From Herpetosiphonaceae bacterium (GTDB lineage Bacteria > Chloroflexota > Chloroflexia > Chloroflexales > Kallotenuaceae): a stretch of DNA of 42,025 bases. The position numbers and the translations under genes are program-made. The notes below the pieces were generated by a model. That model did no database searches and was not told the origin of the DNA. It saw nothing but the letters and a program-made list of their open reading frames with translations. Each line of letters begins with the position of its first letter. Within the stretch, counting starts at the first letter, position 1. Where the stretch lies: positions 1 to 42,025 of the forward strand of contig JACDGP010000040.1 of NCBI GenBank assembly GCA_013821605.1, given 5' to 3'. Positions 4,123 through 11,810 of this stretch are shown here, piece after piece.

Positions 4123-4148
4123 GCAGCAAGCCATTGGAGAGAAGATCG

Positions 4149-5108
4149 ATGCACCATAAAGTAGTTATTATTGGGTCAGGCCCTGCTGGTCTGACCGCAG
4201 CGTTATATGCCGCACGGGCGAATCTAGCACCGGTGGTGATCCGCGGCTTACAGCCCGGTGGGTTGATTGCGACCACCGATGAAGTCGAAAATTACCCAGG
4301 CTTTCCTGATGCTGTGAACGGGTATGATTTAGCCGATAAAATGGACCGGCAGGCGGCGCGCTTCGGCACCATGTTTGTCGACGGCTTGATCCAGGACGTT
4401 GATTTGGGCGAGCGTCCCTTCCGACTCACGACTGATGGTGGTGAAACGTACACGGCTGATACGGTGATCGTGGCTACCGGTGCATCACATCGCAAGCTAG
4501 GCGTCCCCGGCGAAGACCGGCTCGCTAACCGTGGTGTCTCGTATTGTGCAGTTTGTGATGGCTTTTTCTTTAAAGAAAAGCGTATCGTGGTGGTCGGCGG
4601 CGGCAATAGTGCCGTAGAAGAAGGCTTGTTTCTGACCCGCTATGCGAGCGAGGTCTACCTTGTCCACCGGCGTGACTCGCTACGGGCCGATCCGATTATC
4701 CAGCAACGGGCCTTGAACAATCCCAAAATGAAGTTCATTTGGAACACCGTCGCTACTGAAGTGATCGGCGATGGTAAAGTTGAAGGCATTCGCCTCAAGA
4801 ATATTCAGAGTGGTGAGGAGGATGTGCTCCCAACAGCGGCTGTTTTTCCTTATATCGGTCACATTCCAAATACCGATATCTTTGCCGGCAAGCTCGATAT
4901 GGATGCAACTGGTTACATTTTGAGTGCCGGTCGTACGCGCACTTCTGTGCCGGGCGTCTTTGCCTGTGGCGATGTTGTCGATAATATCTACCGCCAGGCG
5001 ATCACCGCTGCCGGTTCCGGCTGTGAGGCGGCGATGGAAGCCTCCTGGTTCCTGGATGAGCATGAGGCTACGCCTACTGCCGTGCCGGAAGCACTTGGTC
5101 AGTGGTAA
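4149..5108 (+). CDS. trxB: Thioredoxin-disulfide reductase
   Basis: FAD- and NADPH-dependent reductase that recycles cytoplasmic thioredoxin, 319 aa, normal length. The FAD-binding GSGPAG is at 9-14, the redox disulfide CAVC at 133-136, the NADPH Rossmann motif GGGNSA at 150-155, and the NADPH-phosphate motif HRRDSLRA at 173-180. The C-terminal FAD contact GVFACGDV is present. ATG 4149 is chosen because GGAGA lies 8 bases upstream; an in-frame TTG at 4134 would swallow that ribosome site. The next gene starts 54 bases later behind its own promoter candidate. Confidence 0.96.
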   Translation: MHHKVVIIGSGPAGLTAALYAARANLAPVVIRGLQPGGLIATTDEVENYPGFPDAVNGYDLADKMDRQAARFGTMFVDGLIQDVDLGERPFRLTTDGGETYTADTVIVATGASHRKLGVPGEDRLANRGVSYCAVCDGFFFKEKRIVVVGGGNSAVEEGLFLTRYASEVYLVHRRDSLRADPIIQQRALNNPKMKFIWNTVATEVIGDGKVEGIRLKNIQSGEEDVLPTAAVFPYIGHIPNTDIFAGKLDMDATGYILSAGRTRTSVPGVFACGDVVDNIYRQAITAAGSGCEAAMEASWFLDEHEATPTAVPEALGQW

Positions 5109-5132: not shown

Positions 5133-5162
5133 CGATCTACCACGCCCATAAGGAGGAAGCTC

Positions 5163-5513
5163 ATGGAGATCACGCACCGGCGATTGAATCGTGTCGACAT
5201 CTTGGCCCTAAGCGGGAGAATGCAGGCCGTAGAGTCTGCTGAGTTGCAAGCACAATTCAATCGGTTATTTGGTGAAGGTCGCTATCGTATTCTGCTTGAT
5301 CTGACGAATCTCGAGTATATTAACAGTCCCAGCTTACGTGTCTTGATTGAAGCACGGAAGCGGGCTCGCGAATGGAAACTGAGCGAGTTTGATCGCGGTG
5401 ATGTCCGGATCGTCAACCTTCCACCGCGTATCAAAGAAGTATTCGATCTAACCGGCTTTACCTCACTGTTCCACATTTATGATGATATGGTTGACGCAGT
5501 TGGCAGCTTCTAA
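5163..5513 (+). CDS. STAS-domain anti-sigma factor antagonist (RsbV/SpoIIAA type)
   Basis: A 116-aa single-domain STAS protein. In partner switching the dephosphorylated form binds the anti-sigma kinase and frees its target; phosphorylation on a serine ends this. The expected strand-loop is LLDLTNLEYINSPSLRVLI, where Ser55 aligns with the phosphorylated serine of SpoIIAA (DSSG there, NSPS here). The C-terminal VFDLTGF helix start is typical. It has a strong AAGGAGG ribosome site and is the first gene of a tight operon, 23 bases ahead of a kinase-STAS fusion. No sigma factor gene is nearby, so the final target is unknown. Confidence 0.9.
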   Translation: MEITHRRLNRVDILALSGRMQAVESAELQAQFNRLFGEGRYRILLDLTNLEYINSPSLRVLIEARKRAREWKLSEFDRGDVRIVNLPPRIKEVFDLTGFTSLFHIYDDMVDAVGSF

Positions 5514-5536
5514 GCCGCACTTACTTCTACACCTAT

Positions 5537-6310
5537 ATGGCGCGTGATCGCCAACCGCCGGACTTAAGCCCTATGACTCAACAGTCGACGCTGGAAGTGC
5601 CGGCCCGCCTTGAGGCCTTGGCCTCCATCAGTAATTTCGTAGTGGATGCGGCTCGAGGAGCCGGTCTTGACGAACACGCGGTTTGGGAAGTGCAACTAGC
5701 CGTGGACGAGGCAGCGACCAACGCGATTGTGCATGCGTATCATGAGCATGAGCTCCATGGTACGTTATCGATCAGTATTGCACAGGAGGACGGTCAGTTT
5801 ATTGTCACCCTACGGGATCAAGGTGCGCCCTTCGATCCTTCGAGTGTGCCTGAGCCAGACCTCGTATCTCCTCTCGAGCAGCGCAAGACAGGTGGTTTGG
5901 GATTGTTCCTGATGCGCAAGCTGATGGATGACATTAACTTCGAGCGTGAGGCGAACGTTAATGTTTTGAAGATGGCCAAGCGCTTGCCACGGAGTGGCTT
6001 GCGTTATATTGCCCTGAACGGTCGTATCGACGCCTCTGCAGCACCGAACGTGCAGCATACGGTCCATCATGCTATGGCAAGCGGTGGCCGTTGGATCGTC
6101 GTTGATATGGCGCAGGTTACCTTTCTTTCCTCATCTGGTCTGCGGGCTTTGTTGATGCTGAACCGGGAGATTCAAAAAGATCGTGGTGATCTGCGACTGT
6201 GCTCATTGCAGCCACATGTTGCTGAAGTCTTTCACCTAACGGGCTTCGACCAAATCTTCCCGCTATATAGCTCGCGTCATGAGGCTGCTGCCTCGTTTCC
6301 ACAAGCATAA
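5537..6310 (+). CDS. Anti-sigma-type serine kinase fused to a STAS domain
   Basis: 257 aa with two domains normally found on separate proteins. Residues about 20-145 are a GHKL/HATPase domain of the RsbW/SpoIIAB type, with N-box AVDEAATNAIVHAY, G1 box LRDQGAPFDP and G2 box TGGLGLFLMRKLMD. Residues about 150-255 are a STAS domain with the phosphoacceptor loop FLSSSGLRALL. The kinase could phosphorylate its own STAS domain, the separate STAS protein encoded upstream, or both. The start may be ATG 5537 or ATG 5573; neither has a good ribosome site. The downstream phosphatase gene begins 32 bases before this one ends, so the products are probably made in coupled fashion. Confidence 0.88.
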   Translation: MARDRQPPDLSPMTQQSTLEVPARLEALASISNFVVDAARGAGLDEHAVWEVQLAVDEAATNAIVHAYHEHELHGTLSISIAQEDGQFIVTLRDQGAPFDPSSVPEPDLVSPLEQRKTGGLGLFLMRKLMDDINFEREANVNVLKMAKRLPRSGLRYIALNGRIDASAAPNVQHTVHHAMASGGRWIVVDMAQVTFLSSSGLRALLMLNREIQKDRGDLRLCSLQPHVAEVFHLTGFDQIFPLYSSRHEAAASFPQA

Positions 6311-8660
6311 TGCTGTGGGTGTAAAGGCTCCCTCGCGGTTACGTAGTCTCCTCCTACCGTTGCTCGGTGTATTGAATCTGCGACAGCGCCGTATTCAAGA
6401 GCTGTCATTACTTAACGAAGCAAGCCGTGCGATTATTCGTGCCGAGCTCGACGTCGACGCCTTGTGCGAACTAGTCTACCAACAAGCCTCTAAAGTGCTA
6501 GATACGTCTTGGTTTCATCTGGCACTTTTCGAGGAGCTGAATTACGAACTCAAAGTTCGGATTCAGAATGGTCAGCGCCTGCCCCCCGAAGTCTTCAACC
6601 TCAGCGAGAACGAAGGGCTAATGGGCTGGATGCGTCGTACCGGTCGAGCCTTACTCGTAGAAGATTTCGAGCGTGAGTTGCCTCATCTACCGGCGCAACC
6701 ACGCTATCACGCTGAACACCCTCCACGTTCAGGTATTTATGTTCCTCTGCTGGCCGGCGACACGGTCATCGGTACGATCTCAGTGCAATCGAGCCGTCCG
6801 CGTCACTTTAATGCCAATGATTTACGTTTTTTGTCGTTGATCGCTGATGGTGCTGCTTCGGCGATTGCCAAAGCGCGCGCCTATGATGCCCTCCGGACGC
6901 GCATCAGGCAGTTACAATTGATCGGTGAGGTTGGGCGTCAGGCCGCTACCTTTTTAGATCTTGACCAGTTGTTGCCGTCAGTGGTGCAACTGATACGCGA
7001 TAGCTTCGGGTATTTTGCAGTCCACCTCTTCATGGTGGACGATGAGCACCAGCAATTGCTGTTTCGGGCCTCAACCGCCACCGATTTACCATTCTGGCGC
7101 GGTCGTCACGAACGGCTCGACTATGGTGAAGGTGTGATCGGGGCTGTAGCGCGCACACGCGAACCGTTGCTGGTCAATGATGTACACCGCGAGCCGCGCT
7201 TTATCCTAGACTTAGCCGGCACCCAATCCGAGTTGGCGGTGCCTCTTACGGTTGGCGAGCGACTACTAGCCGTGCTGGATGTGCAAAGTGATCGACTCAA
7301 TGCTTTCGATGACAATGATCGCTTCGTGTTGCAGACGCTGGCTGCGCAGCTCGCAGTCGCGCTTGATGCAGCCAATGCGTATACTCAACAGCAACAAGAA
7401 GCCTGGACGCTGGCTGCGCTGCTAGAGACGGCCAAAAATATTGCGCGTGCGTCTGACTTGGATGGCTTATTGGCAACGATCGTACGCTTGCCGGCCGTAT
7501 TAGTTGGCTGTGATCGAGTCGCTGTATGGCGTTACGTCCACGACGATGATACCTTTGCGCCAGTTGCCGTGTGGGGCTGGCCAGCCGACGCGCGTGCTGC
7601 GCTGCTCAACCATCCGCTACCCGGCGCGGCTGCACCGTTGCTTGATGAAGTACGAAAATCTGGAGTACATCAGCAGATCGATAATCTAGCCATGGACCCC
7701 GAAATGCTGCCGGCGGTGGCTCGCTATTGCGGGGGCAGCCAGCTTCTCGCGCTACCTTTAGTGACGCGAGCCACAGTTCTGGGCATTTTGCTACTTGATG
7801 CAGATCCCGGCAGGCCGAACTGGTCAGAGAGCCAGATTACCATTGCGCTGGGCATTGCGAATCAGGCCGTCGGGGCGATGGAATCGATCTTACTGGCCCA
7901 AGCGGCCGCCCAACAGGCACGGCTCACTCAAGAGATCCGCGTCGCTCGGGAGATTCAAACAGATTTGCTGCCTGCCAGTACGCCACAGCTGGTGGGATGG
8001 GATATCGCTGCAGCTTGGCGCTCGGCACGCGAGGTGGGGGGTGACTTCTATGACTTCTGGGAGCTCACCGGTCCCCGGCTGGGCTTCGTGATTGCGGATG
8101 TATCGGACAAAGGCGTCCCAGCAGCCTTGTTTATGGCACTGTCGCGCTCACTCATGCGTGCTGCTGCCCTTGATGGCTCCGACCCCTGTTATGCAGTTGA
8201 GCGAGCAAACCGCTGGATTACCCGCGATTCGCAATCTGGCATGTTCGTCACCCTGTTTTATGGCTTACTCAACCCCTTGAGCGGCGAACTCGTGTATACC
8301 AATGCCGGCCATAATCCACCACTATGGGTCCAGACCGATGGAACGGTCACGCCACTCGCTACGGCGGACATCGCGCTCGGGGTTATTGAGCACCCGCAGT
8401 TCCATGAAGCAACCACCACTCTGGAGCCCGGCGATGTGTTGGTTTGCTATACCGATGGTGTAACCGAGGCCATCAACAGCACCGAGGTCGAATACAGTGT
8501 GGCCCGTTTGACCACGCTTATTCAACAACACCGTGCTGTAACTGCTCATGATATCGTAGAGGCAATTCTGGACGATCTCTTGGTGCATACTGGCAATCTA
8601 CCGGCCTTTGACGATGTGACATTGGTTGTAATCAAGCGTAACAGTATTCCTGCCTCGTAA
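6279..8660 (+). CDS. Triple-GAF SpoIIE-type serine phosphatase (RsbU-like)
   Basis: 793 aa. Three GAF sensor domains (about 40-200, 208-370 and 375-545) are followed by a short linker helix and a PP2C-like SpoIIE domain (about 567-790). Metal-binding blocks are intact: GGDFYDFW, IADVSDKGVPAAL, CYTDGVTEA and FDDVTLVV. The phosphatase should dephosphorylate the STAS partners encoded just upstream, opposing the HATPase kinase. No membrane segment is visible, so it senses a cytoplasmic signal, probably a small ligand bound by a GAF domain. The start overlaps the preceding gene by 32 bases. The GTG at 6318 is an alternative that would avoid the overlap. Confidence 0.92.
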   Translation: MRLLPRFHKHNAVGVKAPSRLRSLLLPLLGVLNLRQRRIQELSLLNEASRAIIRAELDVDALCELVYQQASKVLDTSWFHLALFEELNYELKVRIQNGQRLPPEVFNLSENEGLMGWMRRTGRALLVEDFERELPHLPAQPRYHAEHPPRSGIYVPLLAGDTVIGTISVQSSRPRHFNANDLRFLSLIADGAASAIAKARAYDALRTRIRQLQLIGEVGRQAATFLDLDQLLPSVVQLIRDSFGYFAVHLFMVDDEHQQLLFRASTATDLPFWRGRHERLDYGEGVIGAVARTREPLLVNDVHREPRFILDLAGTQSELAVPLTVGERLLAVLDVQSDRLNAFDDNDRFVLQTLAAQLAVALDAANAYTQQQQEAWTLAALLETAKNIARASDLDGLLATIVRLPAVLVGCDRVAVWRYVHDDDTFAPVAVWGWPADARAALLNHPLPGAAAPLLDEVRKSGVHQQIDNLAMDPEMLPAVARYCGGSQLLALPLVTRATVLGILLLDADPGRPNWSESQITIALGIANQAVGAMESILLAQAAAQQARLTQEIRVAREIQTDLLPASTPQLVGWDIAAAWRSAREVGGDFYDFWELTGPRLGFVIADVSDKGVPAALFMALSRSLMRAAALDGSDPCYAVERANRWITRDSQSGMFVTLFYGLLNPLSGELVYTNAGHNPPLWVQTDGTVTPLATADIALGVIEHPQFHEATTTLEPGDVLVCYTDGVTEAINSTEVEYSVARLTTLIQQHRAVTAHDIVEAILDDLLVHTGNLPAFDDVTLVVIKRNSIPAS

Positions 8661-10397: not shown

Positions 10398-11732
10398 TCA
10401 GCGCGGCGCGTTGGGCGCATTCACGAGCCAGGTCGCCCGGCCAAACGGCTCGTGAAGCAACGAGATTCTTAGGCTGATCGCTGAAGGCCGCACACCTTGG
10501 GGCACGACCATCGTCACCTTGGCACGCTCGCCTGGCTGTACATACAGATTCGCGAAGGGCTGAGACAACCGCTCGTCGATCTTGTATTGCACCATCGCAT
10601 CCGAAATTGCAATGTTGACTGCGGTCAAGGGGACGTGCAGCATCAAAGTACGCCGGTTCTCAATGGTCCAGTTCAGCGTGATCTTGTCGTTGTTGTAATC
10701 GACCGTTTCCAGCCAGACCACGACATCGGCTTTCGAGTCGGCAGTATCGGTGTCTGGAATCCACGTTTGCTGCTCGCGTTCCCAGCTGCGACGTATGGCC
10801 TGATGTACGGAGGCAACGCCGTTGCTTATATCTTGGGCGAGACCGCCCGGCGGGATGACAGGTGGTGGTACAGCTGTCGTGGTCACAGCTGGCGGCAGCG
10901 TCCCATTAGAGTCGCTAGGCCGAAATGGCTGGAGCTTGAGCGCCAGAAACAGGGTTAGGCCGACGAACACTGTTAAAACGCCGCCGCCCGCCATCCAAGG
11001 CCGTGGTCGCCACGAGCGGAAGTGCACGGGGGCCGACTGCGGGGCCGGTTCGGATATTTCGACGGGCACGGGAGCCGGTGGGGGCAGTATGACATCCGTT
11101 GGTGTCGCCTCCCACGCCGGCATCACTCCAGCAAGGAGGTCATGCAGTTCTTGCCAAGGCGTGCAATGGAGCATCTTAGGAATACGCTCAAGTGCCGCAT
11201 CTGATAACTCCAAGCCATTACAGCGCTCGATCACCAAATAGGTTGGTAGCTCATCAAGGCCCTTGACTTGCACCTTCCAATCAAGCTCAACCTCCGATCC
11301 CGGCTCAAGTGTCGGTATCGTCACGATCACACGTTTCGCTAAACGAAAGTCAATGTCACCGGCTTTCTGTGCCGACACAATTTCGGCCCTGTGATCGATC
11401 AAAAAGTTTGTGAAGCTGTAAAAGTATGAGATGACCTGATTATACGGATTCTTGCGACCGGGGTTCAACTGCTTGGTCGAGCCCGCCTTGCTGACCACAG
11501 CCCAAGGCCCGTTGACCGAGCCGTAGACTTTGCCATCACAGTGCTTGAGTTCAAGGATAAAAATCGCATCGTGTTTCAGAATAACCAGATCAATGGTCCT
11601 GCCGCCGACGCTGAAATTGGCCAGCATGACATATAGCCCCTCCAGTCGCTCTAAACCGCTGGCAAGGGCAATGATGGCCTTTCTTTCGTTGGGATTTTCC
11701 GGTTTTTCGCCGATCCAGACCTGAACTGCCAT
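10398..11732 (-). CDS. NERD-domain membrane protein
   Basis: About 444 aa. The N-terminal NERD domain (about 5-115) is a restriction-endonuclease-like fold; the likely active-site residues are Asp48 in GGRTIDLVI and the E-x-K of ILELKHC (Glu61, Lys63). A proline-rich linker leads to one transmembrane helix (about 247-267, GGVLTVFVGLTLFLALKL). A second Pro/Thr-rich linker then leads to a C-terminal beta-rich domain of about 120 residues that I do not recognise (VVWLETVDYNND to VTMVVPQGV). The predicted topology puts the nuclease-like domain in the cytoplasm and the beta domain outside. I chose ATG 11732; an in-frame GTG at 11744 is possible. It follows uvrB divergently from nothing obvious, so its partner pathway is unknown. 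Confidence 0.78.
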   Translation of the reverse strand: MAVQVWIGEKPENPNERKAIIALASGLERLEGLYVMLANFSVGGRTIDLVILKHDAIFILELKHCDGKVYGSVNGPWAVVSKAGSTKQLNPGRKNPYNQVISYFYSFTNFLIDHRAEIVSAQKAGDIDFRLAKRVIVTIPTLEPGSEVELDWKVQVKGLDELPTYLVIERCNGLELSDAALERIPKMLHCTPWQELHDLLAGVMPAWEATPTDVILPPPAPVPVEISEPAPQSAPVHFRSWRPRPWMAGGGVLTVFVGLTLFLALKLQPFRPSDSNGTLPPAVTTTAVPPPVIPPGGLAQDISNGVASVHQAIRRSWEREQQTWIPDTDTADSKADVVVWLETVDYNNDKITLNWTIENRRTLMLHVPLTAVNIAISDAMVQYKIDERLSQPFANLYVQPGERAKVTMVVPQGVRPSAISLRISLLHEPFGRATWLVNAPNAPR

Positions 11733-11810
11733 ACCACGTACCACTTATCGCTAGTGCATAGTCACCAATGCGTGGCGCAGGAGCAATAACGCGGCCCTCA
11801 TAATGGTGTA

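Follow-up and report, generated by a model that had tools for sequence, protein, structure and literature searches.

A kinase–STAS fusion encoded with a free STAS protein and a GAF-SpoIIE phosphatase: a putative partner-switching module in an order of Chloroflexota

Organisation of the locus

The window, i.e. the whole 42,025-nucleotide stretch of DNA under analysis, carries three consecutive genes on the forward strand. The first (5163–5513, +) follows an AAGGAGG ribosome-binding sequence (5150–5156, +), recognised by direct sequence reading, and encodes a 116-residue STAS protein of the anti-anti-sigma type (PF01740, 7e-13), denoted the free STAS protein in the following. The second (5573–6310, +) is one frame without a stop. 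Its 245-residue product gives matches to both the HATPase_c_2 and the STAS profile, and kinase and STAS domain are hence located on one polypeptide, as the initial annotation had proposed. For the start of this fusion gene, the ATG at 5573 agrees with the relatives better than the in-frame ATG upstream at 5537. The third gene (6279–8660, +) shares its first 32 bp with the end of the fusion gene and encodes a 793-residue phosphatase with three GAF matches and a SpoIIE/PPM catalytic domain (8073–8639, +; PF07228, 1.3e-50). The separate STAS protein and the triple-GAF SpoIIE phosphatase, previously described as adjoining the fusion, were both recovered at the same coordinates.

The phosphatase of most other families in the order (L056–L114) carries approximately 230 additional N-terminal residues with three to seven membrane-like segments before the GAF domains. 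This region is absent from the family of the window (the window and L055), in which the GAF domains are not preceded by a membrane segment and the phosphatase, judged by its sequence, looks soluble. Directly upstream of the three genes lies a thioredoxin reductase-like gene (4134–5108), found at that place only in the window's family (L026–L028, L055), perhaps an indication of a redox link. Further along the window, a gene on the reverse strand (10398–11744, −) encodes a protein whose N-terminal half, which we take to resemble a NERD nuclease-related domain, is followed by a membrane segment.

Domain architecture and predicted fold of the fusion protein

The kinase domain of the fusion protein (residues 9–136; 5597–5980, +) is of the HATPase_c_2, RsbW/SpoIIAB-like type (PF13581, 7.5e-32), and the STAS domain covers residues 144–238 (6002–6286, +; 7.4e-20). 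Both the fusion (76.4 bits) and the free STAS protein (58.5 bits) score above the TIGR00377 cut-off of 53.45 bits. The order of domains is kinase first and STAS last, and a profile search gave no HTH match in the protein. The N box (E46, N50), the D-x-G motif and the GGLG motif of the kinase are intact. In an alignment of 48 fusions, residues E46, N50, D82, G107, G108 and G110 are invariant and G84 is nearly so. The kinase falls below the curated equivalog cut-offs, with 64, 62.9 and 45.3 bits as compared to 145–155 for RsbW and 135 for SpoIIAB, and it was therefore not filed as an orthologue of either protein. It is the sole strong HATPase_c_2 kinase of this genome (112 bits, with the next match at 37 bits).

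An AlphaFold2 model of the fusion, built on 48 sequences, has a mean pLDDT of 93 and a pTM of 0.71. Residues 1–140 of the model match SpoIIAB and RsbW (Z ~18, VIA-align), and residues 139–245 match solved STAS proteins (Z 13–16.6, VIA-align). A STAS fold of the C-terminal half, set beforehand as a test of the annotation, is thus found in the prediction. The same holds for the physical linkage of the two domains, as no stop or frameshift separates them in the window or in any other full-length genome of the order (71 including the window). An assembly or frame artefact is ruled out by the open frame in these 71 genomes.

The structural match of the fused STAS domain starts near residue 8 of SpoIIAA, so that the first strand typical of STAS domains is for the most part absent. 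The last strand of the kinase continues into the fused STAS domain after a short linker. From Lys136 of the kinase to Gly150 of the STAS domain, the linker comprises 13–16 residues in most fusions, part of which belongs to a STAS strand. Given this short connection, docking of the fused STAS domain onto the kinase in cis may be sterically impossible.

Distribution in the order

We surveyed 158 genomes of the class, 82 of which belong to the window's order. The full-length fusion is present in 71 of these 82 genomes, the window included. Among the 56 genomes with a completeness of 92% or more, it is found in 54; the other two comprise a partial match and one genome without the STAS half (G025). 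Named carriers include Chloroflexus, Roseiflexus, Oscillochloris, Chloroploca, Viridilinea, Kouleothrix and Herpetosiphon. The order of the three genes is kept in all 30 loci of the order that were checked: the free STAS gene is directly upstream of the fusion in 30/30, and the GAF-SpoIIE gene is found downstream wherever the contig reaches. Few full-length fusions were seen in the phylum sample outside the order; most of the matches there stop near residue 140. In G025 (L141, G025:C26) the kinase ends at 143 residues, the fused STAS domain and the phosphatase are absent, and the free STAS protein has the motif SSAGL; this state is a natural loss.

Beyond the three genes, no neighbour is kept across genera. 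The best neighbour family occurs in just 16 of 80 loci, for which reason a conserved fourth gene was rejected as the target of the system. A role in anti-phage defence was likewise discarded, as there was no PADLOC match.

Origin of the fused STAS domain

Operons with the gene order free STAS–kinase–GAF-SpoIIE and parts homologous to those of the window are found in Anaerolineales and Caldilineales (L121, L122, L125, L127, L129, L131–L133). They differ in that the kinase is stand-alone, with 135–150 residues, and in that the acceptor serine of the free STAS protein has Ala rather than Pro after it. The free STAS protein itself is present at nearly all of these stand-alone-kinase loci. The occurrence of the same operon with a kinase of its own in these relatives shows the fused STAS domain to be an addition to a working three-part switch, i.e. 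an extra domain joined to an existing set of free STAS protein, kinase and phosphatase. In the kinase tree, three switches between the fused and the stand-alone form are required, which may correspond to one gain and two losses. Together, the relatives with separate parts (Anaerolineales, among L120–L133) and the natural losses (G025, L098/L105) permit a direct test of covalent tethering.

Separate kinase and STAS genes are found side by side in several relatives (L119, L134; G168, G406, G462), and adjacent phosphatase, kinase and STAS genes were observed in spirochaetes and one planctomycete. One spirochaete locus (L118:294–3113) displays the opposite fusion choice, with the SpoIIE phosphatase fused to the kinase and the STAS protein separate. 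A recent duplication of the free STAS gene into the kinase gene is not supported, as fused and free STAS domains group separately in a quick tree with few columns, in which one divergent Anaerolineae protein is the exception.

Acceptor serines and conservation of the STAS domains

The acceptor position is occupied by Ser in 64/64 fused and 78/78 free STAS domains in the alignment. In the window, it corresponds to Ser187 of the fused domain (6131–6133, +; motif FLSSSGL) and to Ser55 of the free protein (5325–5327, +), which is followed by Pro (motif SP). We take this column to be that of RsbV Ser56 and SpoIIAA Ser58, the first Ser of DSSG. S58 of SpoIIAA is the phospho-acceptor position (PMC11418112, PMC13373217). 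A reading of the sequence INSPSL in which the free STAS protein would have no acceptor serine was rejected, as the alignment places the acceptor at the Ser before Pro. The invariance of the serine in both types of STAS domain argues for fused and free STAS alike as putative substrates of the kinase, and the earlier suggestion that the free STAS protein serves as a second partner is supported.

The two types differ in the residue after the acceptor. In the fused domain it is Ser or Thr in nearly all cases. Among free STAS proteins that share a locus with the fusion it is Pro in 53/60, as compared to 0/17 at fusion-less loci; these counts leave aside L111, where no open kinase frame was found yet tblastn gave a match to the whole fusion. 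Relatedness accounts for much of this pattern. Ala takes the place of Pro in two lineages without a downstream phosphatase, L098/L105 and G025, which provides a lead towards a link between Pro and the phosphatase. As L082 has no phosphatase beside its operon and yet retains Pro, a strict link is rejected and the connection is suggestive only.

Across 20 non-redundant loci, mean pairwise identity is 72% for the free STAS protein, 63% for the PP2C/PPM part, 56.5% for the kinase and 55% for the fused STAS domain, and in 99.5% of genome pairs the identity is higher for the free than for the fused STAS. We read the most conserved part as the one with most partners, so that the free STAS protein is the likely output of the system, albeit other causes could underlie its higher conservation.

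Sigma factors and possible targets

None of the 158 class genomes contains a SigB/F/G-type factor above the curated TIGR02980 cut-off of 234 bits; the best score in the class, ~148 bits, is at the level of the group 1/2 factors of the present genome. Since no more than one of 14 control genomes scored above this cut-off, divergent group-3 factors are possible in other genomes of the class. In this genome, sigma-70 region 3 was detected in five genes, all five of which also have region 1.2, which identifies them as group 1 or 2. The region 3 and region 1.2 profiles thereby reveal no group-3 sigma factor here, and many further region-2 sigma factors are present. The conserved neighbourhood contains no sigma factor either, and the initial remark that none lies nearby can be extended to the class at the cut-off given above. 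The target of the free STAS protein is probably something other than a SigB/F/G-type factor; a non-sigma target, a group 2 factor or an ECF factor are possible.

Comparison with known systems

In the usual description of partner switching, free proteins exchange with one another and a group-3 sigma factor is the final target. The order of Chloroflexus, Roseiflexus, Oscillochloris and Herpetosiphon has one operon with a tethered and a free STAS domain, and no recognisable SigB/F/G factor. The SpoIIAB–SpoIIAA–SpoIIE and RsbW–RsbV–RsbU systems of Bacillus share with the window the families of all three parts (kinase, STAS and PPM phosphatase) as well as the acceptor serine. They differ in that kinase and STAS are separate and in that their targets, sigma F and sigma B, belong to a class not found here.

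A covalent link between kinase and STAS is already known from two systems, in contrast to the earlier assertion that kinase and antagonist are separate. Rv1364c of M. tuberculosis combines a PAS sensor, a PP2C phosphatase, an RsbW kinase and a STAS domain on one chain, and phosphorylates and dephosphorylates its own STAS domain (PMC9138534, PMC7693655). It resembles the window in having the kinase followed by a C-terminal STAS domain on one polypeptide and a PPM phosphatase with a sensor domain in the system. The window differs by its free STAS protein in the operon and by the lack of any SigF-type factor found, and falls outside the single-chain type, as its phosphatase is encoded separately and has GAF rather than PAS domains. 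CapK, an HTH-STAS-GHKL kinase, phosphorylates the separate STAS repressor CapS (PMC13373217). Common to both are a GHKL kinase with a STAS domain of its own and a separate STAS protein as substrate (putative in the window) in which a serine is conserved. However, the STAS domain of CapK precedes the kinase and CapS has a DNA-binding domain, whereas in the window STAS is located behind the kinase, the free STAS protein lacks a DNA-binding domain, and the operon also contains a phosphatase.

Our literature search returned no paper on this Chloroflexota system. As far as the literature searched shows, the two-domain protein with the kinase followed by STAS, paired with a free STAS protein and a separate GAF phosphatase, is new, as is its near-universal presence in one order with the canonical target missing.

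Mechanistic considerations

The three proteins are tentatively described as a partner-switching module in which the tethered STAS domain would act as a local substrate and competitor and the free STAS protein as a diffusible output; we assign this reading a probability of about 45%. The kinase would phosphorylate the conserved serine of the STAS domains, and the GAF-SpoIIE protein would dephosphorylate them upon perception of a signal by its GAF domains. Unphosphorylated, the tethered STAS domain would occupy the STAS-binding face of the kinase, either within the same chain or across a dimer. Its phosphorylation would free the kinase to act on the free STAS protein, which would then convey the state of the switch to a target located elsewhere in the cell. 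The catalytic motifs kept in the 48 fusions count for a switch with an active kinase. In favour of the overall scheme we further count the unique position of the fusion among the HATPase_c_2 kinases of the genome, the precedent of CapK and CapS, and G025, in which the fused STAS domain and the phosphatase are both missing and free STAS and kinase remain. A more far-reaching version, in which the tethered domain would set a threshold, the kinase having to phosphorylate its own STAS before the free STAS, and in which the switch would act on a non-sigma target independently of sigma factors throughout the order, appears rather unlikely.

The alternative that survives best, possible though doubtful, is a fused STAS domain that serves as a structural or dimerisation element to position the free STAS protein, which alone would be phosphorylated. 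CapK likewise has a STAS domain beside the kinase and the separate CapS as its shown substrate (PMC13373217), and the short, fairly uniform linker together with the truncated first STAS strand suggests a fixed arrangement. However, a purely structural role would not need the acceptor serine that is invariant in 64/64 fused domains, and the order of domains is reversed relative to CapK.

Somewhat less probable is a system close to Rv1364c, with the fused STAS domain as the main, self-phosphorylated substrate, the kinase as an anti-sigma factor for a group 2 or ECF factor, and the free STAS protein as an auxiliary antagonist. Rv1364c does modify its own STAS domain (PMC9138534, PMC7693655), its RsbW domain is structurally similar to the fusion kinase (3ke6, Z 15.5), and the five group 1/2 and many further region-2 factors of this genome offer candidate targets. 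This is countered by the absence of SigB/F/G factors over the cut-off in the class and of sigma factors from the conserved neighbourhood, and by the fact that it is the free and not the fused STAS that is most conserved. A neutral fusion by read-through of two adjoining genes, with little functional change, is conceivable from the side-by-side kinase and STAS genes in relatives (L119, L134; G168, G406, G462) but highly improbable, given its retention in 54/56 near-complete genomes with an invariant acceptor serine and without a stop between the domains in any full-length orthologue of the order.

Additional kinase and STAS genes were noted in some genomes. Those denoted G006–G013 and G043–G050 have a second HATPase domain within proteins of ~490–615 residues, and in several of them (e.g. 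G008, G009, G013) a free STAS gene is found at a distance of ~2 kb, which probably represents another partner-switching system. In G000 (G000:C198, locus L144:3692–4060, −), a second free STAS paralogue with the motif INSAGL is an orphan without adjoining kinase or phosphatase and is possibly another partner for the single kinase.
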